Positions 20,673-35,461 of a stretch of 36,600 bases of DNA are shown in pieces. The position numbers and the translations under genes are program-made. Every line of letters starts with the position of its first letter. The first letter of the stretch is position 1. The stretch is taken from the NCBI GenBank assembly GCA_004297825.1, contig SCSX01000009.1, positions 1-36,600 of the forward strand, in the 5' to 3' direction. The stretch comes from Spirochaetota bacterium. GTDB lineage: Bacteria; Spirochaetota; UBA4802; UBA5368. Under the pieces are notes generated by a model, which worked only from the letters and a program-made list of their open reading frames with translations, had not been told where the DNA came from and searched no databases.

Positions 20673-23597
20673 ATGAAAAAGAAGAAACCCTCCTCGGATG
20701 CCAGGGAAGGAAAGCGTTTAAAGAAACACGTCCCCCTAGTCAAGAGCGAAGAAGGGCTGCCGGCCGGGCCACGCCCTGCCGAATCGCGTGATTCCCGGCC
20801 TCGGACGGCCGCGTCAGCGGGAAGGCGCTCGATGAAAGCGCGGGTGGCCCTGATCGCGGCAAAGGTCCTCTTTATCTGGATTCCCCTGGTGCTGGTATGC
20901 CTGGTCACCATTGTCATGATCGGTCTTAAAATATATCTGACCCCCGACCGGGTGGAAAAGCTCATAGTCTCGAATTTCAACGAGATGTCGAACGGCGAGA
21001 TTTCCCTCAACGTTAAAAGTTTCAGTCCTTACGGCGGTTTCGAGATCGACAATATCCTTATCCGCAACGGGGAGGAATTCAACAGGAGCACGTTCGTCGC
21101 GATTGAGAAACTTGTTCTCAAGTACGGCTTCTTTTCGCTGTTTGCGGGCAATGTGCATTTCGATGAAATCGGGATATATAAACCGCGCATCTACCTCGAG
21201 GAAAAAAACGGTGCCTGGAATGCCGCGCGCCTCATGAAGCCGTCCGAAAAGAAACCGGAACCCGAGAAAAAAGAGGAGAAAAAGAAGGAAGACGAAGGCC
21301 CCCCCAGCAAGGAGGTGAACCTGCCCATCTCGGTTGAATTCCTGTTTAAATTCATCCTGGACGATTTCAGGATGTATGTGAAGGGGGGCACGTTCAACGC
21401 CGCCGTCGAAGGTCTTACGTATACCATGGACATATGGGTTCCCCCGTTCAAGAAGATACCGAAATCCCTGGAAGCGGTTTCGCTCCTCGAGCGCATGAAG
21501 ATCGTGCTCAATCCCGAGGAGGAGATGCAGGTTTCGTTTTATTCGCAGGACGCCGACGTGACGCCGCCGCTTATCCTGACCTGGAAGCTTCTCTTCAGCA
21601 AGACCGAGGCGAACAAGCCCGAGTTCAAAAGCCTCCTGAAATTCGGAACGTACCGTACGCCAGTGCGCTTCAAGCAGGCGCACCTTGCCCCCCTTAACTT
21701 CATGGTCTCGTACGATATTTTTTACGATCCCACGAGCGATTTCCTGCGGGTAAACAATTTTGGCGTCACGTTCCTGAATCGCCGCTGGCTCTTCCTGGCC
21801 GGGTCGGTCAAGGACGTGACGACCGCTCCCGTGGTCGACATAAAGATGGAGGAGAGCGCCATCGTCCTGGACGATCTCTACCCGTATTTTCTCGCGCTCA
21901 CGCATGATTACGCGACAAGGTTCAGCGGCGTTATTTCCCTGTACCCGCTTTCAGTCAAGGGCACACCCGACAGGATGGACATCAACGGGGAGGTGAATTT
22001 CACCTACGTCTATTTCAAGAATCCCGCGGCCGAGGCTACTATCCCCCTTCTTAAACTGGGTTACGCGGTGAACAAGCTGAAAGACGATATGAAGATATCC
22101 TCCCGGCTCTCGATACCCTCGTTCATGTACACGCTGAACAAGAACAAATCCGGGGCGAACGGCCTCGACGTGGGGATCGACGTAATGGCGTACAGCGGCT
22201 TTCAGGCGATCGAAATCAATAATATTTCGATGCGGATGTACAACCCGCTGGACGGTACGAGCGCGCTCGATATGCGCATGACCGGCAACGTGAACCTGGC
22301 CGCCGGCACCTCCGGTGCGATCAGGATCCCGAAGTTCACGTTCATGAAAGAACCGCTCATGGCCATGTTGCCGAACAACATCAAGAAGAGCCTCAAGGGC
22401 CTGCCGTTTAAAAAGCCCGTCGACATGGCCCTGGACCTCCGTTTCGCCATGAACCAGGACGCGACGAACGCCCAACTCGGGATGCTTGTCCTGGTTCCGG
22501 ATTTCGATGTAACTGATCTAAGAATAGACGCCGATATTGCGATGCGCAACCAGAACAAGTTCGCGGCCATAAACAGATTCACCATCACGAGTCCCGAGAA
22601 AAGCCTTACCGTCTCGGCAAACGGGTGGGTGGATATAAGCGCACCCCCCATGAAGGATTCGGACATCCGGCTGGCGATACGACTGGATGCCCCGCAGGAG
22701 AAACCGGTGTTCGGGCCGTGGAAATTGTCCGGAACTGCGCAGGTGAACGCGTTCGTCAAGGGCGACCTGAAAAGCGGAAAGGCCTTCGGCTCGGTGAAAA
22801 TCGACAAGCTTTTCGTGAAGAACAATGAGGCAAAACTCACGGTAAACGACGTCAACATGGATTTTCCGTTCGAGTACTACTTCACGCCCCGCTACTCCGG
22901 AGAATCCAGGCTGCTTGTAGACAAGACGGATGTCATGGAAAGCGATTATTTCCAGGATAAGCCGAATTTCACGATTAGCTCGATCGCCGCGAAGCATCCG
23001 TCGCGCGAGCTTCCGTTTGAATACCTAAAGGATTTTTCAGCGAACATGACCTTTCGGGAAAACACCTTCCTTATCTCCAACCTCAAGGCATACGTGCTCG
23101 ACGGCTCGCTGTACGGAAGGACGATCATGTTCAACCTGGCCGATATGAAGCCCGCGAACATGGAATATAAGCTGACACTCGAGATCACCAACGTGGACCT
23201 GGGCAAGCTCGACGAGTTCGACCCGGAGAAGAAGACGCGCGACGCGGAGCTGTCCCTGAACGCGAATTTCGCAGGGAAAGTTGGAAATATTAAAAAGGAG
23301 ATACTTGCGCAGGGATCCATCAACATCTACAAAATCGGCGCAAGCTTCGCTAACAGGCTGATGAAGGGACTGAGCAGGGAAAAAGGGGAATCGAAGCTGG
23401 GGATCGCGCAATTCCCGGTCGATAATTCCATGTCGGTGAAGGGGTTCGATTTCAACCTGGGTACGGGACTGGTGTACACCACAGTGGCGTTTTCGCGGGG
23501 AGCGATAGGATATCTGTTCGGGGTGAAAGACGAGAAGGTCGAGTTCGATCGAATGCCGATCCAGGAATATATTCGCAAGGTTCGAGAGGAGAAGTGA
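20673..23597 (+). CDS. AsmA-like large envelope protein (YdbH/TamB-type theme)
   Basis: A 974-residue protein. It has a very basic cytoplasmic N-terminus (1-55), one membrane helix (about 58-88), and a long periplasmic part. The segment right after the helix (LTPDRVEKLIVSNFNE, then GFEIDNILIRNGEEF) is the typical AsmA N-terminal beta-strand start. A Lys/Glu-rich low-complexity insert lies at about 189-212. The rest is largely alternating beta strands, as expected for the hydrophobic groove proteins that bridge inner and outer membranes and move phospholipids. The next gene encodes a DUF1318/YdbL-like lipoprotein. In E. coli, the AsmA-like YdbH is encoded with the lipoprotein YnbE and with YdbL. 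AGGTG precedes the ATG. Substrate and exact subfamily are inferred. Confidence 0.85.
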   Translation: MKKKKPSSDAREGKRLKKHVPLVKSEEGLPAGPRPAESRDSRPRTAASAGRRSMKARVALIAAKVLFIWIPLVLVCLVTIVMIGLKIYLTPDRVEKLIVSNFNEMSNGEISLNVKSFSPYGGFEIDNILIRNGEEFNRSTFVAIEKLVLKYGFFSLFAGNVHFDEIGIYKPRIYLEEKNGAWNAARLMKPSEKKPEPEKKEEKKKEDEGPPSKEVNLPISVEFLFKFILDDFRMYVKGGTFNAAVEGLTYTMDIWVPPFKKIPKSLEAVSLLERMKIVLNPEEEMQVSFYSQDADVTPPLILTWKLLFSKTEANKPEFKSLLKFGTYRTPVRFKQAHLAPLNFMVSYDIFYDPTSDFLRVNNFGVTFLNRRWLFLAGSVKDVTTAPVVDIKMEESAIVLDDLYPYFLALTHDYATRFSGVISLYPLSVKGTPDRMDINGEVNFTYVYFKNPAAEATIPLLKLGYAVNKLKDDMKISSRLSIPSFMYTLNKNKSGANGLDVGIDVMAYSGFQAIEINNISMRMYNPLDGTSALDMRMTGNVNLAAGTSGAIRIPKFTFMKEPLMAMLPNNIKKSLKGLPFKKPVDMALDLRFAMNQDATNAQLGMLVLVPDFDVTDLRIDADIAMRNQNKFAAINRFTITSPEKSLTVSANGWVDISAPPMKDSDIRLAIRLDAPQEKPVFGPWKLSGTAQVNAFVKGDLKSGKAFGSVKIDKLFVKNNEAKLTVNDVNMDFPFEYYFTPRYSGESRLLVDKTDVMESDYFQDKPNFTISSIAAKHPSRELPFEYLKDFSANMTFRENTFLISNLKAYVLDGSLYGRTIMFNLADMKPANMEYKLTLEITNVDLGKLDEFDPEKKTRDAELSLNANFAGKVGNIKKEILAQGSINIYKIGASFANRLMKGLSREKGESKLGIAQFPVDNSMSVKGFDFNLGTGLVYTTVAFSRGAIGYLFGVKDEKVEFDRMPIQEYIRKVREEK

Positions 23598-23598
23598 C

Positions 23599-24201
23599 AT
23601 GAAAATGAATAAATGCTGCCTTATCATTCCGGTCGTTGTCGCGGCAATTGCGGCCGCGGGATGCTCGAGCATGCCCAGTTGCCTGGAGATTTCCCCCCCG
23701 GACATACATCTCACCGGTGAAAAAACCGTCATAGAGCGCCAGATCGTGGGCGAATACCGCGAGCTTGAGAAGGACGCCTGGATAGTCTCCTCCGTGAGAA
23801 CCAGCATCACTAAAACGAAGGGAACACCCATGGCGACCGCGGGTGGAGACGAAGAATTATTCAAGGCGCTTAAAATCCGGGAATTCAACGAGGAAAAACT
23901 CAGGATATTCAAGGACGAAGGGGCGGTTGGCGAAACGAACGCGGGTGTCGCGGCGTACATCCCCACGCAGAAGTACGAAGGCAACCAGGGCTTGAAAAAC
24001 GCCCTCATGAAGGTGCTGGAGGACGAAAACAGGGCGCGGGCGTCCATTTTCGAGCGCAGCCTTGCAAAATCCGGGACCGAGAAGCCGGCGCCCGACCAGG
24101 TGGCCGCTTTTGCGAAGAAGTTCGCGGAAGAGCAATACGCCCTCGCGAAAAAGAACGACTGGATACAGGATAAAATCGGTCAGTGGGTGAAGAAGAGATG
24201 A
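23599..24201 (+). CDS. Small lipoprotein with DUF1318 (YdbL-like) domain
   Basis: A 200-residue exported protein. It has a short basic start, a hydrophobic core, and the lipobox AAGC with Cys22 as the lipidation site. The later part (GAVGETNAGVAAYIP, then ARASIFERSLAKSG, FAKKFAEEQYA and a terminal WIQDKIGQWVKK) follows the layout of DUF1318/YdbL: a G-E-T/N-x-G-Y-like motif, a helical run, and a tail with D-x-x-G-x-W-V/M-x-K. The ATG is one base after the AsmA-like stop, with GAGGAG at good spacing. The stop overlaps the next ATG as ATGA. Because the lipobox and the YdbL-like domain are in one chain, it may combine the roles of E. coli YnbE and YdbL (inference). Confidence 0.78.
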   Translation: MKMNKCCLIIPVVVAAIAAAGCSSMPSCLEISPPDIHLTGEKTVIERQIVGEYRELEKDAWIVSSVRTSITKTKGTPMATAGGDEELFKALKIREFNEEKLRIFKDEGAVGETNAGVAAYIPTQKYEGNQGLKNALMKVLEDENRARASIFERSLAKSGTEKPAPDQVAAFAKKFAEEQYALAKKNDWIQDKIGQWVKKR

Positions 24202-27200
24202 ATACACTCGGGAAATTATTCGGCATCCTTGCGGCGCTGGGAACGGCGGCCCTGCTGTCCTGTGACGATCGCGGAAAGAAGGAAGTGTCATTCGAGTATA
24301 AGAGCATCCTGGAACAGGAATTCCAGGACACGGGAAGAAGCATCCCACTCACCTTCGAGCAATCAATCGACATTGACGGCCTGTTTACCGGTGATGGCCT
24401 TTATTTCTTCTACGCATCGGACCGCGAATCCGGGAATTTCGATATTTACCTGCGCTCCCTTACCGGTATCACCACGGTAAGACTGACAAACCATCCCTCC
24501 AAGGATACCATGCCGGCGGTTTCGCCGGATGGCAAATATCTCGCGTTCGTCTCCACGCGGGAGGATCCCGAGGGAGATATTTACGTCGCCAGGGTGAAAT
24601 CGAAAAAGCTGATCGAGGAGGCGGAGGCCTCGGTGTCCGATATCCCCGCACTTGACGAAAAAGCGAAAAATCTCACCCAGTTTCAGGATCCGCAGTCAAA
24701 AACCATTAAGATCATCAAGGATACGACGCCCGCCTGGTCACCCGACAACAAGCTCATCGCATTTTGCTCGAACAGGGACGGGCGGGAGAATGTCTGGGTG
24801 ATGAAGCGCAACGGCGGCGATTTAAGGCAGATAACGAAGGACGGCGGCACGAGCCCCCGATTCTCCGAAGACGGGAAGCTCCTCGTATTCATTACGTATC
24901 GGGACGCGGGGAACAAGGGCGACATCTACACCTATAATTTCGAAAGCGGCGAAGAGAAGCGCGTCATAGGCACGCCCGCGATCGAGCTTTCACCCTGTTT
25001 CATGCGGACGAACGACGAGATCGTGTTTGCCCGTATAGACCGGGATACGAACGGCGACGGGACGATTAATCTAAAAGACGATTCTGCCATCGTTTATAAA
25101 AACCTTGCAAGCGGGCTCGAATTCCCCCTTACCCTCCAATCGCGCTCCTCGTTCGATCCGAAGTGGAGTGCGGCACTGAACGGGGTCATCGTCTACTCGG
25201 ACCAGACCGGCCAGAATATCAACGTAAATATCATTCCCGACACGGGGGTGATTCCGAAAAAAGAAACCGCCGGCAGCCAATACGAACTTGCAGACCGCTA
25301 TCTTGTCGAATTCGAGGATGTAGAGCGCTACCTGATGTGCCTCGATAACGTGTACAATTATTTCGGCAACCAGACGGATGTCGATTCCCAGGTGTTCACC
25401 GCGAAGGCACTGGCGTCCGCGGCCCTGAAATACGCGGAGACCGGAAACGGGGCAAGGGCTCAGCGTGCGCTCCAGATTCTTGCCGCCTATTCGACCGACA
25501 GGAGCGATTACCGGAACATCACCGCGCGATGCGCGGCGGAAAAAATGAACGGCCGGGGGGGCGCCGATATTCTCACGGCGGGGCTCGGGGACGTTTCGGC
25601 GGACAAAACCAGGGAAGCCTACGTACCCTACCTGATGGAGGACTTGGCGGATGAATATGCGCGGGCCGGCAGGTACGGTGATTCGACCCTCCTCCTCCAG
25701 AGAATCATCGCAGACTACGGAAATTATTCCAGGCTGGCCAACGTGCATTACAAGAATGGCGTCGCCACCTACGCGCGGCTGGAAGACGAGCTCGCGCCCT
25801 CATATGTAGAGGTATTGAAGTCGAACAAGGGCCTGCTCGTAAACGATACGATCGTCAACCTGCTCTCGGTCTTCGATGGCGAGCGTAATGCCGCACGAAG
25901 GATCACAATCGCGACGGCCATGCTCGAAAAATACAAGGACGTACGGCTTTTATCGGGGATGCTGCGATTTGTGATCGGGAAAAGCCTCGCCGAAACGGGG
26001 GATAAATCGGCGAAAGCCACCCTGCTTGACGCGTTAAAATCCTCCGAAAAAACGGACCTCGTATATTACCGGATAAATCTCCTTATGTCCGATATTTCCG
26101 AGAAGGAAAAAGATATCGAGGAATTCGAGGAATATCTGACCGAGGCGATTACCAGTTATGACCTGCAATGGCGCCAGAAGGACATCCGCGACGTGGTGCA
26201 GCGCCTGGTCGATTATTATGAAGACAAGGGCGAGAAGGCGGAATACGACAGGAAATACAAGCGCGCCGCCTCGATTTATGGACGTTATGTGAAATTAATG
26301 AGCGCCCTGCAGTCGAAGAGAAAATTCATGGATATCGTGGGGCAGTACGGCGCGCGCGCCCACGTATTGTATATCGACGCCTATGCCCTTTGGAAGGGGA
26401 ACAAGGTGGCCCCCCTGACCGAGCTCGTGGAAAAGTATTCGGGAAAGGGACTGCAGCGTGCCCGGCGCAATTTCGACAAGGCGTACCTGTACGGGCTCGG
26501 GTATCTCTACACGCGTCTCGCCGTCGCCGCCGAAAAAAAGGCGAAGGATTCCGTCTTGGGGACGATCAGTTTCACCAACGAAGCGGTCGACCAGTTGTTA
26601 AGCAATTTCAAGCTGGCCATAGGGCACCTGGACTGGGCGCTCTTCATTGACGATTCGTATATCGACGCGTACCTGTTGAAGGGATGGATCTACCAGTACG
26701 TGGACCTGCGCAGGTCGGAGGGCCGGAAGGAAACCGAGGGCGCCAACGAGAAGCTCTTCGAGGACTTTTTCCCCAAGTACTTGTGGGAAAAAAACATCAC
26801 TATCTACGAGCGCGCGCTTGTCGCGAACAGGGAATCGGATAACCCCGAGCAGGAGGGAAACCTGCACCTCAACAGCGCAAACACCTATTTCCTTCTTAAT
26901 AATTTTCCGGCCGCGCTTCAGCATTATCTGCTCGTGAATAAATACAAGACCGCGTTTCAATCCAAAATCGAAGAGGCTCTTTTCCATTATCACTTCAGTT
27001 ACAGCTATTGGCAGGATTCGCAATATGGAAAGGCTCGCGAGGAGATGAACAAGGCCTTCAATATTTACCAGGCGCTCGCGACGGGTAAAAATTTTAAAAA
27101 ATATAAAAAACAGATACTCACGATGTATCACTACTTCGCCCTTCTGGGACGAATCGAAAATAAATATGCGGACGCCATTAACTGGTACCAGGCGATATTG

Positions 27201-30200
27201 AGCTTTGCGGGCCGGACAAAGATGAAAATCGACAAGGCGCGCTACGTACAGGAGATCGCGTACTGCTACGGGGAACTGGGTGACACCGCGAAAGCGCTGC
27301 AATATCTTGGGAAATCGCGCGCATTGCTGAAAAAATACAAGGACGATGAAAAGACCTACAAGCTGCGCTGGAAGGTATTGGGACTTGGACCGATCAGCTT
27401 TTACAACCTGGGGCCGGACGTCGCGGTGATAGGCGTGGGCGGGAACAGGATATACAAGAAGCTGGACACATTCGAGAAGAAGATTTTGAATTTCTCCATG
27501 CAGGAGGAGATTTTCTTCGAGCGGGGAGATTATAAAAAATCGATAGGCGTGTTGAAGAATAAACTTAAGCAGCTGGAGGATCGGTCCAATAAGATAGACC
27601 GGGAAACAAGGATCAAAACCCTTAACAATATCGGCTATGGATACTTCAAGCTGCGCAATTACAAGGCGGCGCTCAAATATTTCAAAGAAGCCTGGGATTA
27701 CGCCGCCGGCGACGATGTGTATGACCTGGAGGGTATTTTCGAGTCGATAATCAACATTGCGAACCTCAATGCGTTTTTAATCGATGAAAGCCCTGACACC
27801 CTCAAGAATCCCGTAAAAGAAATAGACAAGCTCGTTGGACGCATCACCGACTACAAGGACGGATATGAGGAGATGCGGTTCAAGCAGGAATACGCGCTGC
27901 TGAAGGAAGACGCCAAACTGCGCAAAAAGAAGCTTGCCCCGGAGCAGGTTACGGAGCTCAGGGAGAGGATTAAGGAAGAGGCGACATCAATTTACTATAC
28001 GATCGACATCGCGATAGGGGTGCTTACCTTCTACAAGGCGGAGATTATTTATAACGCCGAACCTCCGAAACTCAAGGGTGGAAGCGCGGAAGACAGGGCC
28101 TACGGCTATTATGCCGGCAACAGGGACCTCTTCGACCTTTATGCCGCTGCGCTGGCCAGGTTCAATGACGCGATCTCCCAGGCGGAAAAGGACGTTTCGA
28201 AGAAGACCATGGTTAAGCTCCTCCTGAACGCGAGTGCGTGCCAGCAGAAAATGGGAATGATGGACCTCGCGTATGAATCGCTGACCGCCGCGGAAAACGC
28301 CGCGAAGGCCGGGGGCCATACGGACCTGGAATGGGTCGTGTATCATGAAACGGCGCGATTTTTATCCGTGTATGGTGAATCCGTCGAGGGCAAGGACGCG
28401 GCAGGAAGGGCCGGGGAATACTTTAGAAGCGCAATCGGAATTATCGAAGAAACGCCCCCGCTGTATTCATCATACTTCAACCGGATAAAGCGCCTGTATG
28501 ACGAGTATGGCGAGCTTCTTCTGAAATCCGGAAACCGAAATACGGCGCTGATAATTTCCGAGAAAAAATATGAGACGCTTCGGACGGTAATGATATCCCT
28601 GGCAGCTCCCCAATTCCGAAGTGCAAAGGATACCGAATATTTTACCGCGTACATGGAAAAAGTATACCTGATCGATGGGCTCGCAAAGCAGATATCGGTA
28701 TTGCTCGAGGCCGGTGAACAGCCTGGAACCGGGAAATTGAAGCCCCTGGAAGACGGCCTCGCAATGCAGAAAAGGGACCTGGGTGTCTTCAAGGCGCAGC
28801 TCGCCATCCTCAATCCCCTGCTCTCATCCATGCTTTTCGGCACGGGAGGCTCCCTGGTGGTACCTGAGGGGGCTGTTGTTTACAAGATAGGCACGGCAGG
28901 CGGCAAGGCCATCGCGTGGAGGGTGACCGGGGGTCGCACGGAATTCAAGGAATTGGACGGGGCCCTGGACGATATACCGGCAATCGCGGGCGCGCTCAAG
29001 CAGTTTATGTCCGCGCCGGAAAACCGATTCGTGGTGCTGGACGCGCACTCATATTCGCTTCATACTGCTCTAGGTGAATCGGGTATCCCCTTTACCTACA
29101 TACCCTGCATCGAACGCTCCCGGTACTTCATGGATGGACCAAGGGGATCATTCACCAGCGCGTTTTACACTACGAAGGGCTTGAAAAAGCGATTGGCCGC
29201 CGGCGAGAATACAAAGGAGATTCTCGTTACGGAGGGAGACCCTGGCGAGAATTCTCTCGCGCGATTTTCAATAGTGGTTGATGATGACTATACGGAAAAT
29301 GGCCTCGATCCTGAACGGCTTTTCAAGGAAAAGCTGGGGGCCGCCCTGCTGATCAAGGACCTGGAAGAACTGGCTCCCGATGACATGAATTATTTCACCG
29401 AGGCGTCACTCTACGCGGGAACGCGCTCCCTAATATTCTGCAGCAGGGCTAAACCCAAGGGGTTGAATCTTATCATTCAGCAGGCCGCGCTTTCGACATT
29501 TGATTCGGTGGCACAAGCATCCGCGTTACAGGACTATAAGCCGCTGTGCGTGGGATTCCGGGGTGTGGATAAGGCGGAACGGGATAAGTCCTCGGCCGTT
29601 GCAAAAAATGCAGCGTATGATAATTATCAGGCGGCGTTTGCGGCGGGTAATTATAAGGAAGCGATGACCGATCTCCAAAACTGGCGGGATCTCAATGGTG
29701 ATGATCCCGAAGTGGCGATAAAGGCATCATTGCTAAGGGCGGAAGTTGAACTCGCACGCGAGCGCGGCGTCGATGCGCTCGTTCTGGCGGAATCCGCAAT
29801 GAAGGAATCCGAAAATAAATTCCCGGAGCTTTATCTCAGGGCAGCGGGGACCAGGCTTTATTGCCTGATACGAGAGGGTAATCCGGTCGCGGCAGCGGAA
29901 ATCCTGGCGTTGCAGAAAACCTCGGTTTTCGCCGAGAGCTTAGATTATTTCATGTACGCGGGAATTCTCGCGCTCATTGAAGGTGATTCCAAGACAGGCT
30001 TTGAGCTCATTGCGCGGGGGAAAGAAGCTAAATCATCGTACATGTCTTCCCTGCGGCTTGGCGTGCTTGTCATGGAATACCTGTCGCTTCTCGGGTATGA
30101 GGATGCCGCTAAAAAAATAGCCGCGGATTTAACGCCCGATTTTAAACTTTCGCAGCGGGAAATTTGCAAGATTCTTCTAATGAACGGAACGGAAAATCCG

Positions 30201-32099
30201 GCCCTGACTGATCGCCGGAGCGGAAGCGTTCTTTCTCTCAGGAAGGAGGGCTCCATAAACGCTCTTAAATCCGGGGCCCTGCTCTTGTTCGAAGAAAACG
30301 GCGAATATGATATGTTGTCCCCGTTCGCCGCGACAGTCGCAATTGACCGCATGGTGAAGGCGAGGGAATACGGTGCAATCGACGAGGTCGCCGATGGGTT
30401 GGATATTGATGACATGGCGCAGGGCGCTTTCTGGATTGATGCCGCGCAGCTTGCATTCCGGGTGTGCGGTTTTTACGAACGCCGGCAGGGATTTGAAGAT
30501 GCGCTGGAAGCCCTTACGAAGTCCGAAACGGCCTTCAAGTCCCGTGAAATTGCACCTTTGAAAAGAAGATACTTTTACGAACTTGCCTCGTTGCTTTCAA
30601 AGTTAGCGCAGCACAAGGAATCTTATGCGGCGGCCCAGAAAGGAGTCCCGTACCTGAGCGCGAAGGATTCCTCGGCATTCGCCGAATATCAATTGCTCCT
30701 TATGGATGAAGAGATATGGCTTGGAAAATATTCCGCGGCCGAGGAGCGGGCAGCTGCACTGGATCCGGAATTGCCCGATGAGTACAGCTACGTCAAGGAA
30801 CTGTTGCGTGCAAAAATGCTTCACGCGACGATAGCAGCCGAAAAGGCGCCGTCGGATGATGAATGGAGACTGCTGGAAACCAGGATATCGGGCGCGTTTT
30901 CGATCCTTGACAGATCCGCCCGGACACTGCACAAATTCAACAGGATTGAGCTGGTCCGGGAGAACCTGGATTTCCTGATATCGAGGAAAATGGATCAGGC
31001 GGATCACGCCGCTGCTTTATTGTACGCCGAAATCAAGAAACAGCTGGAAGCCCGGTCCGCGTTTTTCTCCCTGGCCGATTCCGCGGACATCCCTTCCGGG
31101 GTTCGGGACGAATTCAAGGCGCTCACAGACAGGGCGACGGGAAGCGTTCGTTTTACGGAATTGTTGAGGGAGCGCCCCATCCTGCATATCACGGCACTCG
31201 CGGGTATGATCCCTTTGGAGCAGTTCCAGCGTTCGATCCCCATAAACACCGTCGTATTCTATATGCTGCGCAACGGTTCCGATATACTCGTATGGGCGAT
31301 TTCGGGAACTTCGGTCGAAGGCATGCGCCTGCGCGGCGGATATGATCGCGCGGCGAAAATTTCCGAAAACTATAAGGCTGACCTGTCCTCATTCAACAAT
31401 GTGGTGGGGGTTTCCAAGGAGCTGGTGGAGTTGTTCAAGCCGCTTGAATCTTATATAAATGACAAGCCGGTATTGGTTTTTGTAACCGATACGGACCTGG
31501 AGGAAATACCTTTCGAGGTGCTGGGCGATAATGACGTACTGGAGACCGCACATACGGTCGCATTCCTGTCGTCTATCATGTCCGGTGTGCGCGTATATGC
31601 GCCCGCGGATAATGTCGGGCAGTATGTTGATGCTGAACGTAAATCCGTGTACCAGGAACTGGAACTGGTGGCGCTGGGACAGGGAGGGATACGCAAAAAG
31701 GCGGACAATTCACCTGCTACGGGCTTAGGCCACCTGCTTCCGCGGATCGTTCACGATCCCGAATCAGGGGACATGCTGATCGAGGCAAAATCCCTCCAGG
31801 GAGCGCTGAAGGGATATGGGGCGCTCTATCTGCCCTCGGCGGATTTTTTGGGGAACATCGGTTGCGCCGAATTCGCGCTGTACGCTTCCCTGCAGGGGAT
31901 TCGTACCGTGTTCATCAACGACGCGGAAATCCATGATGTAAACGGGGCCATTTTCGTGAGTGAATTTTACGGAAGACTGGCCATGGGTGCCGATAATAGA
32001 ATAGCCTTCAGCGAAGCGAAGCGCTCCCTGCGCTCCCGGGTGAAATACCGGTACCCGGCATATTGGGCGGGAATGAGGGTATATATCAATTCGCTCTGA
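24198..32099 (+). CDS. Giant lipoprotein: TolB-like propeller, TPR arrays, two CHAT-like domains
   Basis: A 2633-residue predicted lipoprotein, lipobox LLSC with Cys22 followed by Asp-Asp. Residues about 50-355 form PD40/TolB-like propeller blades (PAVSPDGKYLAFVS, PAWSPDNKLIAFCSNRDG) with a calcium-loop motif at 283-294. Residues about 395-1475 are helical TPR-type repeats (for example near 888, 1016 and 1139). Residues about 1546-1791 look like a first, divergent CHAT domain. Residues about 1798-2300 are more helical repeats. A second CHAT-like domain (about 2315-2633) has TDTDLEEIPFEVLG, FYGRLAMG and YPAYWAGMRVY. No HxxxHG or SxCxT/E-type catalytic motif is visible in either. The ATG overlaps the preceding stop (ATGA); a GTG five codons earlier is a less likely start. 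Function unknown; probably an envelope scaffold or sensor. Confidence 0.85.
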   Translation: MNTLGKLFGILAALGTAALLSCDDRGKKEVSFEYKSILEQEFQDTGRSIPLTFEQSIDIDGLFTGDGLYFFYASDRESGNFDIYLRSLTGITTVRLTNHPSKDTMPAVSPDGKYLAFVSTREDPEGDIYVARVKSKKLIEEAEASVSDIPALDEKAKNLTQFQDPQSKTIKIIKDTTPAWSPDNKLIAFCSNRDGRENVWVMKRNGGDLRQITKDGGTSPRFSEDGKLLVFITYRDAGNKGDIYTYNFESGEEKRVIGTPAIELSPCFMRTNDEIVFARIDRDTNGDGTINLKDDSAIVYKNLASGLEFPLTLQSRSSFDPKWSAALNGVIVYSDQTGQNINVNIIPDTGVIPKKETAGSQYELADRYLVEFEDVERYLMCLDNVYNYFGNQTDVDSQVFTAKALASAALKYAETGNGARAQRALQILAAYSTDRSDYRNITARCAAEKMNGRGGADILTAGLGDVSADKTREAYVPYLMEDLADEYARAGRYGDSTLLLQRIIADYGNYSRLANVHYKNGVATYARLEDELAPSYVEVLKSNKGLLVNDTIVNLLSVFDGERNAARRITIATAMLEKYKDVRLLSGMLRFVIGKSLAETGDKSAKATLLDALKSSEKTDLVYYRINLLMSDISEKEKDIEEFEEYLTEAITSYDLQWRQKDIRDVVQRLVDYYEDKGEKAEYDRKYKRAASIYGRYVKLMSALQSKRKFMDIVGQYGARAHVLYIDAYALWKGNKVAPLTELVEKYSGKGLQRARRNFDKAYLYGLGYLYTRLAVAAEKKAKDSVLGTISFTNEAVDQLLSNFKLAIGHLDWALFIDDSYIDAYLLKGWIYQYVDLRRSEGRKETEGANEKLFEDFFPKYLWEKNITIYERALVANRESDNPEQEGNLHLNSANTYFLLNNFPAALQHYLLVNKYKTAFQSKIEEALFHYHFSYSYWQDSQYGKAREEMNKAFNIYQALATGKNFKKYKKQILTMYHYFALLGRIENKYADAINWYQAILSFAGRTKMKIDKARYVQEIAYCYGELGDTAKALQYLGKSRALLKKYKDDEKTYKLRWKVLGLGPISFYNLGPDVAVIGVGGNRIYKKLDTFEKKILNFSMQEEIFFERGDYKKSIGVLKNKLKQLEDRSNKIDRETRIKTLNNIGYGYFKLRNYKAALKYFKEAWDYAAGDDVYDLEGIFESIINIANLNAFLIDESPDTLKNPVKEIDKLVGRITDYKDGYEEMRFKQEYALLKEDAKLRKKKLAPEQVTELRERIKEEATSIYYTIDIAIGVLTFYKAEIIYNAEPPKLKGGSAEDRAYGYYAGNRDLFDLYAAALARFNDAISQAEKDVSKKTMVKLLLNASACQQKMGMMDLAYESLTAAENAAKAGGHTDLEWVVYHETARFLSVYGESVEGKDAAGRAGEYFRSAIGIIEETPPLYSSYFNRIKRLYDEYGELLLKSGNRNTALIISEKKYETLRTVMISLAAPQFRSAKDTEYFTAYMEKVYLIDGLAKQISVLLEAGEQPGTGKLKPLEDGLAMQKRDLGVFKAQLAILNPLLSSMLFGTGGSLVVPEGAVVYKIGTAGGKAIAWRVTGGRTEFKELDGALDDIPAIAGALKQFMSAPENRFVVLDAHSYSLHTALGESGIPFTYIPCIERSRYFMDGPRGSFTSAFYTTKGLKKRLAAGENTKEILVTEGDPGENSLARFSIVVDDDYTENGLDPERLFKEKLGAALLIKDLEELAPDDMNYFTEASLYAGTRSLIFCSRAKPKGLNLIIQQAALSTFDSVAQASALQDYKPLCVGFRGVDKAERDKSSAVAKNAAYDNYQAAFAAGNYKEAMTDLQNWRDLNGDDPEVAIKASLLRAEVELARERGVDALVLAESAMKESENKFPELYLRAAGTRLYCLIREGNPVAAAEILALQKTSVFAESLDYFMYAGILALIEGDSKTGFELIARGKEAKSSYMSSLRLGVLVMEYLSLLGYEDAAKKIAADLTPDFKLSQREICKILLMNGTENPALTDRRSGSVLSLRKEGSINALKSGALLLFEENGEYDMLSPFAATVAIDRMVKAREYGAIDEVADGLDIDDMAQGAFWIDAAQLAFRVCGFYERRQGFEDALEALTKSETAFKSREIAPLKRRYFYELASLLSKLAQHKESYAAAQKGVPYLSAKDSSAFAEYQLLLMDEEIWLGKYSAAEERAAALDPELPDEYSYVKELLRAKMLHATIAAEKAPSDDEWRLLETRISGAFSILDRSARTLHKFNRIELVRENLDFLISRKMDQADHAAALLYAEIKKQLEARSAFFSLADSADIPSGVRDEFKALTDRATGSVRFTELLRERPILHITALAGMIPLEQFQRSIPINTVVFYMLRNGSDILVWAISGTSVEGMRLRGGYDRAAKISENYKADLSSFNNVVGVSKELVELFKPLESYINDKPVLVFVTDTDLEEIPFEVLGDNDVLETAHTVAFLSSIMSGVRVYAPADNVGQYVDAERKSVYQELELVALGQGGIRKKADNSPATGLGHLLPRIVHDPESGDMLIEAKSLQGALKGYGALYLPSADFLGNIGCAEFALYASLQGIRTVFINDAEIHDVNGAIFVSEFYGRLAMGADNRIAFSEAKRSLRSRVKYRYPAYWAGMRVYINSL
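25044..25079 (+). other. Dockerin/EF-hand-type calcium-binding loop within the propeller
   Basis: Codons for residues 283-294 of the giant lipoprotein read DTNGDGTINLKD. Asp, Asn, Asp, Thr, Asn and Asp fall at positions 1, 3, 5, 7, 9 and 12, with Gly at 4 and 6: the full pattern of a dockerin-type calcium loop. Confidence 0.7.
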
Positions 32100-32140: not shown

Positions 32141-33355
32141 ATGAATAATATCGGCGATAGGAAATTCCATATTGCGATCATCGATGATGATAAATCGGTG
32201 AATTTCCTCATCAACCGGATTCTCGAGGATGAGTACGCCGTATCGAGCTACCTGAGCGCGGAGGACGCGCTGGGCGCCATAGAGTTGAGCGCGGTGGACG
32301 TGGTGATCACCGATGTGAATCTTCCCGGCATGGACGGCCTTGAGCTCCTGCGGCATATCCAGGAAAAGGATGACAATATCCCGGTGATACTCATCACCGG
32401 TTATACGGATATCGATACCGCGATATCGGCGCTCAAGAGCGGCGCTTTCGATTTCATCCTCAAGCCGTTCAATACCGACCAGATACTGATCTCCGTTCAG
32501 AAAGCCCTTGAGAGCCGCAGGCTTGTCGTCGAGAACCGCACCCTGCTCAAGGAGCTTACGATAAAGAACAGCGAGCTCGAGAAACTCAACCTCCAGATAC
32601 AAACCCGCAACGTCGAAATCGAAAACGAGCTCGACATGGCGAGCAACCTTCAACAGTGTATTTTCCCCGTTACCTACCCGGAGATCGGGAAGTTCAGGTT
32701 CTCGGTCAAGTTCAAGCCCGTGGAGAAAATAAGCGGCGATTTCTTCGACTTCATGGTGTACGACGAAAACCATTTTTCATTTATTCTCGCCGACGTATCC
32801 GGCCATGGCCTGCCCGCGGCGTTGTATTCGGCCATGGTGAAAATGGCGATCACCTCGGTGGAGGAGCAAAACCTGAATCCCGCGGCGTTCATGGACGGGG
32901 TAAACCGGTTCCTTATCAATGCGCAGAAAAAAATGAGTTACAACTACGTGACCATATTCTATGGTTCGTTCGACCTGGACACGAAGAGGCTTCGCTACTG
33001 TAATGCGGGCATTCCTGCGCCGGTCATATTGAAATCGAGCGGCGATATCGTCATGCTTGACCCTAACGGCCCGTTTGTCGGAATTTTCGACACATCGATC
33101 TACATGGACGCGGAGGTCGCCATCGACACGGGCGATAAAATTCTTTTTTACACCGATGGCGTGTTCGAGTGTACTAATAAGGATGATAAGATCATGGGGC
33201 AGAAGATACTGTTCGAGTTGATAAAGAAGGTACAACAGTACGCAATGTCCGAAATCGTGACGTCACTTTTTGGCGAGGTGGAGAAGTTTTGCGGGGAGAA
33301 CCGGTATAACGATGACATCACCCTGGTCGGGATGAGCTATTCCGATTTTCCTTAG
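32141..33355 (+). CDS. Response regulator with SpoIIE/PP2C-type phosphatase output
   Basis: A 404-residue cytoplasmic signalling protein. The receiver domain (about 8-125) has the acidic pair Asp15-Asp16, phospho-acceptor Asp58 (ITDVNLPGMDG), Thr/Gly in LITG (85-87) and Lys108 (ILKPF). A coiled-coil linker (about 128-168) follows. The PP2C/SpoIIE domain has GDFFDF with metal-binding Asp200 and Asp203, ADVSGHG (217-223), FYTDGVFE (Asp339) and DDITLV (391-396). It resembles RsbU/RssB-type proteins that dephosphorylate an anti-sigma antagonist upon receiver phosphorylation. No histidine kinase, STAS protein or anti-sigma factor is encoded in the window. AAGGAG lies about 12 bases before the ATG, and the gene begins 41 bases after the giant lipoprotein. 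Confidence 0.93.
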   Translation: MNNIGDRKFHIAIIDDDKSVNFLINRILEDEYAVSSYLSAEDALGAIELSAVDVVITDVNLPGMDGLELLRHIQEKDDNIPVILITGYTDIDTAISALKSGAFDFILKPFNTDQILISVQKALESRRLVVENRTLLKELTIKNSELEKLNLQIQTRNVEIENELDMASNLQQCIFPVTYPEIGKFRFSVKFKPVEKISGDFFDFMVYDENHFSFILADVSGHGLPAALYSAMVKMAITSVEEQNLNPAAFMDGVNRFLINAQKKMSYNYVTIFYGSFDLDTKRLRYCNAGIPAPVILKSSGDIVMLDPNGPFVGIFDTSIYMDAEVAIDTGDKILFYTDGVFECTNKDDKIMGQKILFELIKKVQQYAMSEIVTSLFGEVEKFCGENRYNDDITLVGMSYSDFP

Positions 33356-33417
33356 GCATTCATTTATTGTATATTGAGTTGAGGGTGTTTACCGGCTTAC
33401 CGGTGGAGGAGGCTTAC

Positions 33418-34488
33418 ATGAAATATGTGCATGACAATAGTATCTGGAAGGGATTCAGGGCGCTGGTGGTTGGACTTATCGTCCTGGCGGCATGTCCCGC
33501 GATGGCGTTAGAGGTTTCATTCCTGATAGGAGAGGTTTCGGTCCTGCGTGAGGGCGTATCGGTCCCCGCGAGCCTTTCCATGCCGTTGAATCCGGGCGAC
33601 ATGATCGTGACCGGCGCAGATGGACTGGTGACCCTGCATTATGCGGACGGGAGCGAGGTCAAGATTTCGGAGGGCACGACCCTCAGGGTAGGAAGCGCCG
33701 CCACGAAGGATGCCGATTCGATCTCGGTGATTTCGGGGTCGGTACTGACCGCCTTCCAGAAAATCTCGAAGGACGCCGAAGACCGGAAGGTATATACGCC
33801 CACCACGGTATGCGCCGTACGCGGCACGAAGTTCGCGGTCACGGTGAGCAAGGGGGCGGATTCCCGCGTTGACCTGAGCGAGGGTAAACTCGATGTTCAC
33901 AATCCATACGGAAAGGTAGAAGTGAATCCCGACGAGGACGTAGAGGTGGGCGTGGGGGAGGAACCGGAAAAACAGGATCTCAAGGGCTCGACCAGGGACT
34001 GGAAAGCGGGCCGGGACCAGGAGTTCAGCAAGGATCCCAAGGAAAAGAGTTCCAAATTCAGGAAGTACGTAGGAACCCTGGGTGACAGGAGCGCGAAATC
34101 CTCCGACAATGCGGGCAAACTCAATTCAGGGATGGGGAAAGCCGGCAAGAGCAAGGCGGAACTCGAAAAAACGGGCGCTGAGATCGGCGAACTCGAGGAG
34201 AATATTAAAGACGACATGATGCTGAGCGACAACGCCACCTCGTCGATCGACGGGATCCTGAAGGATTTTCAGAGCCGGAAGGACGATATCTATTCGAATT
34301 TCCTGAAGGTCAAGGAGGAGTCGAACAAGGTGCGCGAGCAGCAGAAGAAGAACTATGAATCGATCATGGCGGTCAAGCAGGCTTACAAGAAGGCCTATGA
34401 CGAGATAATGGGCACCCACAAGGGCATGGTCGATAAGATCAAAGGCGGAATGAACAAGGATTCGGTGAAGCCTCCCATTGAAAAGTAG
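33418..34488 (+). CDS. Exported FecR-domain protein with C-terminal coiled coil
   Basis: A 356-residue secreted protein. The N-terminal hydrophobic segment (11-30) ends in LAACPAMA. Cleavage after Ala30 by signal peptidase I, or lipidation at Cys26 (lipobox LAAC), are both possible. The FecR domain (about 33-165) shows LNPGDMIVTGADGLVTLHYADG, a VISGSVL strand and TTVCAVRGTKFAVTV. The remainder is Lys/Glu-rich with a likely coiled coil at about 255-345. Unlike classical FecR, there is no anti-sigma N-terminal domain. The frame is open from 33367, but GGAGGAGG stands seven bases before the ATG at 33418. It is the last gene of the cluster, ahead of a terminator. Confidence 0.9.
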   Translation: MKYVHDNSIWKGFRALVVGLIVLAACPAMALEVSFLIGEVSVLREGVSVPASLSMPLNPGDMIVTGADGLVTLHYADGSEVKISEGTTLRVGSAATKDADSISVISGSVLTAFQKISKDAEDRKVYTPTTVCAVRGTKFAVTVSKGADSRVDLSEGKLDVHNPYGKVEVNPDEDVEVGVGEEPEKQDLKGSTRDWKAGRDQEFSKDPKEKSSKFRKYVGTLGDRSAKSSDNAGKLNSGMGKAGKSKAELEKTGAEIGELEENIKDDMMLSDNATSSIDGILKDFQSRKDDIYSNFLKVKEESNKVREQQKKNYESIMAVKQAYKKAYDEIMGTHKGMVDKIKGGMNKDSVKPPIEK

Positions 34489-34552: not shown

Positions 34553-35461
34553 TTATCGCATCAGGGAATGATAGTATTCCCTGCCCGTGGATATCCCCTG
34601 TCCGAATCCCTCGAGAATCTTTTTAGGATCGCGGGTGAGCCTGTCGACGCGAAATCCTTCAGGCGGGTATAGTACGTCGATTCCCGTAAACCTGTTCTCC
34701 AGGTCGTCCAGGAGCTTGTTGTAATGGATGAAGCGGTTCTCGATGGCCTCGATGAGAAAGCGAAATTCCCTGTTTCTGTAATACGACTCATAGAGCGCCC
34801 TGATCCATACCGATTCCTCTTTTTTTCTGTACCCGCGGACGCGGGTCAGCACGACCAGGATCTCGGATTCGCGAAAACCCATTTCGAGGGCCTTTAAATA
34901 CGGGATCGGGTCCAGTAGTCCGCCGTCCAGGAAACGGTGATTTTTGTATTCGACGAATCCCCTGTACAGGAAGGGAATAGCGGCGGTCGCCTTGAGCGCG
35001 ATTATGGGATCGTCCTTCCTGGAATCAAGATAAAGGGTTCGCGGTACATTGTCCGGCCTGCAGTCGGTCGCGGTTATGAGCACGGGGCAGGATTTTCCGA
35101 GTGCCTTCCGGTCAAGCGGTTCGCTTCCCTGTACTATCGTTTCGATCATCCAATCGAGGTTGAGCACGTGCCGGTTCTGCCTGAGAATATTGGTAAGCGT
35201 GATGAATTTTCCGGAAAGGAGCTCGCTGAAGAACGCGTCGCGGGCGATGTGTATCTGCCCCGCGGCATACGCCGCCCCGGTAAGCGCGCCCGCGGATGAG
35301 CCTATGATCAGCTTCCAGGGGAAAAAGCGCCTGTCGGTAAATGCCTGGAGCACCCCGGTGAGGAATATCCCGCGCATTCCCCCTCCCTCCAGGATGAGCA
35401 CCTTTTTCCGACTTCTGAAATAGGGCGTGCCGGTTAAGCGATTAATAAATTTTCTGAACAT
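34553..35461 (-). CDS. Patatin-like phospholipase
   Basis: A 302-residue serine lipase of the patatin/YjjU group, probably cytoplasmic or membrane-peripheral. It has the oxyanion glycine motif GGGMRG (26-31), the nucleophile elbow GSSAG with Ser56, and the dyad Asp179 in DGG. An LKATAAIPFLY stretch after the second strand is also typical. There is no signal peptide; the N-terminus is basic (FRKFINRL, RSRKK). It is likely to hydrolyse acyl chains of phospholipids or related esters. It converges with the FecR cluster at the shared terminator. A minus-strand promoter with TTGACT and CATAAT stands 37 bases ahead of the ATG. Confidence 0.93.
   Translation of the reverse strand: MFRKFINRLTGTPYFRSRKKVLILEGGGMRGIFLTGVLQAFTDRRFFPWKLIIGSSAGALTGAAYAAGQIHIARDAFFSELLSGKFITLTNILRQNRHVLNLDWMIETIVQGSEPLDRKALGKSCPVLITATDCRPDNVPRTLYLDSRKDDPIIALKATAAIPFLYRGFVEYKNHRFLDGGLLDPIPYLKALEMGFRESEILVVLTRVRGYRKKEESVWIRALYESYYRNREFRFLIEAIENRFIHYNKLLDDLENRFTGIDVLYPPEGFRVDRLTRDPKKILEGFGQGISTGREYYHSLMR

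Follow-up and report, generated by a model that had tools for sequence, protein, structure and literature searches.

We analysed a window of 36,600 nucleotides (the whole of the stretch studied, positions 1 to 36,600 of contig SCSX01000009.1, assembly GCA_004297825.1) from a Spirochaetota bacterium, in which one giant gene runs for 2,633 codons without an internal stop. Directly 5' of it lie genes for a lipoprotein with the domain DUF1318 and for a protein of the AsmA superfamily, and the order AsmA-superfamily gene, DUF1318 lipoprotein, giant is conserved; a FecR gene usually lies downstream, and a SpoIIE-phosphatase response regulator often does too. The DUF1318 gene and an AsmA-superfamily gene of the NCBIfam LIC_11026 family directly preceded the giant at all 24 loci of the bacterial order with upstream DNA that were compared for gene order. 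In the window, the giant's ATG overlaps the stop codon of the DUF1318 gene as ATGA, a sign of translational coupling. We conclude that the giant is not an oddity of this genome; it is part of a conserved AsmA-DUF1318-giant-FecR operon.

The N terminus of the giant, MNTLGKLFGILAALGTAALLSC-DD, has a hydrophobic stretch followed by an LLS-C lipobox at Cys22 and then Asp-Asp. Signal peptides and lipoboxes in the giant and its orthologs were called with a hydrophobicity/lipobox heuristic, and it is by this heuristic only that the giant has the signal peptide and lipobox Cys of a bacterial lipoprotein. A relaxed lipobox pattern was found in 18/24 spirochaete giants; one of the remainder is truncated, some end in a near-lipobox or AXA-like site, and a few orthologs have a signal peptide without a lipobox. 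The predicted signal peptide is followed by a beta-propeller, a helical region (TPR1), a first CHAT-like module (CHAT1), a second helical region (TPR2) and a second module (CHAT2). Pfam matched PD40 in four stretches (4.5e-31), TPR weakly and CHAT once (residues 2527-2626, 5.5e-7); the search of the host genome gave no second CHAT match. Pfam recognised no signalling domain in the giant. Besides the propeller, residues 800-1100 of TPR1 are the best-conserved part. The initial annotation of this DNA had described a single frame of almost 8 kb with a lipobox, PD40-like blades and helical repeats, and each of these features was recovered. Its picture of an exported, membrane-anchored TPR-CHAT protein with an N-terminal propeller is supported by the heuristic export signal, the Pfam matches and the predicted folds.

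To assess the two CHAT-like modules, we built AlphaFold models of residues 1465-1800 (CHAT1, alignment of 22 orthologs) and 2290-2633 (CHAT2, 19 orthologs). The CHAT2 model had a predicted local distance difference test (pLDDT) score of 83 and matched Csx29 in Foldseek (8eex_B, E 1.6e-10); in VIA-align the best match was 8d9f_A (Z 22.2, 280 residues, 3.3 Å). Pfam CHAT (PF12770) scored 29.7 bits with the whole protein and 36.1 bits with the CHAT2 domain alone (6.6e-9), above the gathering score of 24 bits, and matched CHAT2 in 14 of the 19 orthologs at E<=1. For the CHAT1 model (pLDDT 91), the best Foldseek match was 7y8t_B (1.3e-5), and all matches below 0.001 were Craspase TPR-CHAT chains. 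Separases were at the top of the VIA-align results for CHAT1 (7nj1_A, Z 14.7, 262 residues, 4.3 Å), with the first unrelated entries at about 7.7. Pfam CHAT had no match in the CHAT1 region (residues 1546-1791) in any of the 22 orthologs, and PDB sequence searches with the CHAT1 and CHAT2 profiles gave chance matches only. The assignment of CHAT1 rests on the predicted fold and on a weak match to the profile of active CHAT domains (E 4.6e-4, probability 33 %). As judged from the models, both modules are confirmed as CHAT/separase folds. An origin of the two modules by internal duplication was considered and is not shown, since their profile-profile comparison covered only 31 columns (probability 3 %).

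The catalytic residues gave a different answer from the fold. We compared the CHAT2 dyad in three alignments of 19 spirochaete domains and 7 relatives from a deltaproteobacterial phylum described below. In all three alignments, the catalytic His column contained His in 0/19 and the Cys column Cys in 0/19 of the spirochaete domains, whereas both residues were intact in 7/7 relatives. Among CHAT1 orthologs, no column exceeded approximately 18 % His or Cys, so that neither residue is conserved. Hence, the His-Cys dyad that defines catalysis in clan CD is absent from both modules, and the catalytic dyad has been lost in the Spirochaetota giants. The “CHAT hallmarks” reported initially near residues 1546-1791 and 2315-2633 are therefore true of the fold, for which the Foldseek comparison of AlphaFold models proposed at that time found a caspase/separase-like structure in both modules, and untrue of the active site; a reading of the modules as catalytic CHAT effectors is unsupported.

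Table 1. Features of the giant and its operon (positions in the window).
Feature	Position	Strand	Evidence or remark
AsmA-superfamily protein, NCBIfam LIC_11026 family; first of the trio	20673..23597	+	
DUF1318 (YdbL-family) lipoprotein; stop overlaps giant start (ATGA)	23599..24201	+	PF07027 37.9 bits, cut-off 27
Giant lipoprotein, 2633 aa: PD40 propeller, TPR1, pseudo-CHAT1, TPR2, pseudo-CHAT2	24198..32099	+	
Predicted signal peptide and lipobox LLS-C (Cys22, then Asp-Asp)	24198..24263	+	Sequence and heuristic
PD40/TolB-like beta-propeller, ~aa 40-345	24315..25232	+	Pfam PD40 4.5e-31; TIGR02800 119 bits
Helical/TPR region 1, aa 346-1464	25233..28589	+	Pfam and ortholog conservation
CHAT1: predicted separase/CHAT fold, no catalytic dyad or Pfam match	28842..29585	+	Model spans 28590-29597
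Helical region 2, aa 1801-2289; little conserved, missing where a relative's protein stops after CHAT1 or sooner	29598..31064	+	
CHAT2: Pfam CHAT, predicted TPR-CHAT fold without the catalytic His and Cys	31215..32096	+	Model spans 31065-32096
Response regulator with SpoIIE-type phosphatase domain; adjoins giant often, not always	32141..33355	+	
FecR-domain protein, weakly LipL45/Lsa33-like; often the last gene	33367..34488	+	

We determined the distribution of the giant in a first sample of 39 genomes, comprising the window's own and relatives. A match was found in 34 of these, 30 of them strong, in most cases as one frame of 2,400-2,700 aa. Relatives that bear a name are uncultured Spirochaetota, Leptospiraceae and Turneriella. 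The search of spirochaete genomes for the same domain order, which had also been suggested as a check, found it kept over approximately 2,400-2,700 aa in most relatives, indicating that the architecture is not due to chance. Some orthologs are shorter. One family (G010, G019 and G023; loci L022, L023 and L024) has proteins that stop after CHAT1 (~1,790 aa), and those of G036 and G022 (loci L036 and L044) stop before it (~1,430-1,450 aa), indicating that TPR2-CHAT2 is a variable extension. Leptospiraceae-type loci carry the same trio; the AsmA gene of one (L092) scored 1004 bits against LIC_11026, and the C terminus of the giant of this type is related to CHAT2 (E 4.4e-8, 298 columns).

The giant and its upstream neighbours were also absent together. 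All 10 same-order genomes without the giant also lacked DUF1318 and the AsmA ortholog, with either no match or weak AsmA-family matches only. One seeming exception, G196, has all three genes; a run of N conceals its giant. Among 247 Spirochaetota genomes, 70 had both the giant and DUF1318, 4 the giant alone, 34 DUF1318 alone and 139 neither; Fisher's test gave p 3e-30, without correction for relatedness. Of the 74 genomes with the giant, 52 had DUF1318 immediately upstream of it in the same orientation. In a further family (f15; G058, G069, G090 and others), DUF1318 occurs in many members and the giant in only two at the threshold used; the locus L138 encodes a diverged giant of 2,252 aa located away from DUF1318.

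We found the same arrangement in a second phylum. A Deltaproteobacteria contig (JAIPDZ010000048, locus L098) carries an AsmA/YhdP-like gene, a DUF1318 gene and a gene for a 2,866-aa giant with PD40, TPR and CHAT (1.4e-58), whose CHAT domain has intact HxASHG and SACQTG motifs. In this phylum (the L098 phylum), long giants are present in G289, G493, G312, G275 and G310, and fragments in G345 and G373. The trio was found at 4/5 loci with upstream sequence (L098, L123, L125 and L126; not L127), and full-length DUF1318 of the window type occurred in exactly 5 of 247 sampled genomes, all five with a giant. Giants of the two phyla are co-linear, with matches in the propeller (E 2.8e-45), parts of TPR1 (1e-7 to 4e-16) and CHAT2 (1.4e-16). 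For a possible CHAT1-like module in the central part of the L098-phylum giants, the comparison gave a match of just 39 residues at the corresponding position (E ~0.1). Judged from its residues alone, the CHAT domain of this phylum is probably an active protease, and parsimony, applied without a tree, would make the active form ancestral. Directly 3' of the giant in L098 (16188-16697), L123, L125 and L126, a gene for an SH3_3-domain protein occupies the place of FecR. A stronger finding than the initial observation is the conservation of the trio across two phyla, in which one version of the protease is apparently live and the other apparently dead. The literature that was searched contained no published description of the giant or of the trio.

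To relate the upstream genes to known systems, we compared them with Escherichia coli proteins. YhdP, TamB and YdbH redundantly perform an essential function in outer-membrane lipid balance, and the defect of a tamB yhdP mutant is suppressed when the ydbH-ynbE-ydbL locus is supplied on a plasmid (PMC8593681). YdbH is cited in PMC12977461 as binding the lipoprotein YnbE. E. coli YdbL matched the profile of window-type DUF1318 proteins (E 2.2e-9, 84 columns), so the YdbL-family component of the YdbH-YnbE-YdbL system is present in the operon and, as in E. coli, shares it with an AsmA-superfamily protein. The AsmA neighbour scored 330 bits against NF047499 (LIC_11026; cut-off 325) and 31-32 bits in AsmA/DUF748 matches. 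NF047499, a Leptospira family, is a “hypothetical equivalog” with no function assigned, and it names this neighbour, not the giant. The spirochaete system differs from that of E. coli in that its DUF1318 protein, of approximately 200 aa, is itself a predicted lipoprotein, its AsmA protein is not detectably YdbH, and the operon adds a PD40-TPR-CHAT giant of ~2,400-2,900 aa. The DUF1318 protein of the window is twice the length of E. coli YdbL, and its extra N-terminal half is conserved. A YnbE-YdbL fusion is unsupported as an explanation of this lipoprotein; the DUF1318 profile matches YnbE over the signal peptide only.

We propose, with a probability of roughly 0.6, that the giant is exported and lipid-anchored, faces the periplasm and acts as a scaffold subunit in an AsmA/DUF1318 envelope machine, having derived from a degenerated periplasmic separase-like protease. 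The AsmA-superfamily protein would be an inner-membrane-anchored bridge, and the DUF1318/YdbL-family lipoprotein and the giant, which we infer to be physically linked to both partners, would complete the machine. The propeller and TPR arrays would bind partners, and the two pseudo-CHAT modules may serve as binding or regulatory domains rather than proteases. The ancestor of the giant would be a catalytically active TPR-CHAT protease of the periplasm, already in the service of this AsmA/DUF1318 system. By analogy with YdbH-YnbE-YdbL, that system may move lipids or keep lipid balance between the two membranes; the proposal of a scaffold for a bridge is based on the YdbL match to DUF1318 and on the role of the ydbH-ynbE-ydbL locus in E. 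coli lipid balance. The earlier suggestion of an “envelope scaffold or sensor” is compatible with these results, and the conserved operon, which the initial annotation had not mentioned, sharpens it.

Several observations weigh against this proposal. Profile comparison of the AsmA neighbour with the one E. coli YdbH sequence detected no match (probability 0.2 %), and YdbH orthology is not shown. There is no YnbE-like piece in the operon, where a gap of 1 base separates the AsmA and DUF1318 genes; YnbE was not sought elsewhere in the genome. Some relatives lack TPR2-CHAT2 or stop before CHAT1, and those parts are consequently dispensable. Lastly, the giant lies away from DUF1318 in the Turneriella type, in some other families and in some paralogs, indicating that it can work elsewhere.

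The alternative that deserves most attention, although we consider it unlikely, is that the giant is an envelope sensor that feeds the SpoIIE-type response regulator and FecR in partner-switch signalling, with AsmA-DUF1318 merely a co-regulated output. Both signalling genes lie downstream at many loci, and the Turneriella-type paralogs adjoin GAF-SpoIIE and MinD/ParA-like proteins. However, the response regulator is missing between the giant and FecR at six loci (L028, L029, L031, L032, L034 and L037) where DUF1318-AsmA stays, it was not found beside the L098-phylum giants, and the giant itself has no recognised signalling domain. Less probable still, the giant could be a generic scaffold or surface lipoprotein whose only tie to AsmA-DUF1318 is a shared transcript. 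Its propeller and TPR arrays are indeed of generic kinds, and adjacency to DUF1318 is broken in some families, but conservation of the trio in two phyla and the joint absence of its members argue against such a bystander.

Two further explanations are very improbable. An active envelope protease, cleaving a partner on a signal as a Craspase- or separase-like effector, would fit the CHAT fold of both modules and the existence of relatives that share architecture and operon and have an intact dyad, but not the absence of His and Cys from the CHAT2 dyad columns or their lack of conservation in CHAT1. The giant resembles Csx29, the TPR-CHAT protein of the type III-E CRISPR Craspase, in having TPR followed by CHAT and in the CHAT2 fold match. 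Csx29, in contrast, acts with Cas7-11 and keeps its dyad, H585 and C627 (PMC9729208), whereas the giant has two modules without a dyad, an export signal and an N-terminal propeller. Likewise, eukaryotic separase has a helical array with a caspase-like domain at its end and gave the best Z score for CHAT1, but it is an active intracellular cohesin protease and the giant is predicted to be exported. A divergent TolB working with Tol-Pal is equally doubtful. The propeller is of the PD40 type and TIGR02800 (TolB) scored 119.5 bits over it, far below the equivalog cut-off of 343. The propeller makes up only ~12 % of the giant, which is about six times longer than TolB and has another genomic context; the Pfam annotation of the window's proteins included neither tolQRA nor pal families.

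If the preferred reading of a scaffold in an AsmA/DUF1318 machine is true, CHAT/separase-type domains would be placed in the periplasm, in a housekeeping role rather than in defence. More tentatively, and at somewhat less than even odds, the two phyla may represent a widespread, undescribed class of envelope lipid bridge, consisting of an AsmA-like bridge, a DUF1318 lipoprotein and a giant exported separase-like protein that would be a live periplasmic CHAT protease in the deltaproteobacterial phylum and, in Spirochaetota, a scaffold with two pseudo-proteases. PMC12977461 raises as an open question which factors cooperate with lipid bridges of the AsmA superfamily, and the supply of the spirochaete outer membrane is poorly known (PMC11784454). 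With its dead separase fold and live-looking relatives, the conserved giant offers a named candidate partner for the study of bridge factors.

Two other gene neighbourhoods were observed. Turneriella/Leptospirales-type genomes carry a paralogous giant of ~2,500 aa (L083-L088 and L135; for example, L086:6793-18353) in the order MinD/ParA-like ATPase, DUF2914, giant, GAF-SpoIIE. In the window, a gene for a patatin-like phospholipase (34553-35461, minus strand) adjoins the operon, and it is kept there in many relatives (L027, L033, L040, L043, L047 and L049-L051).

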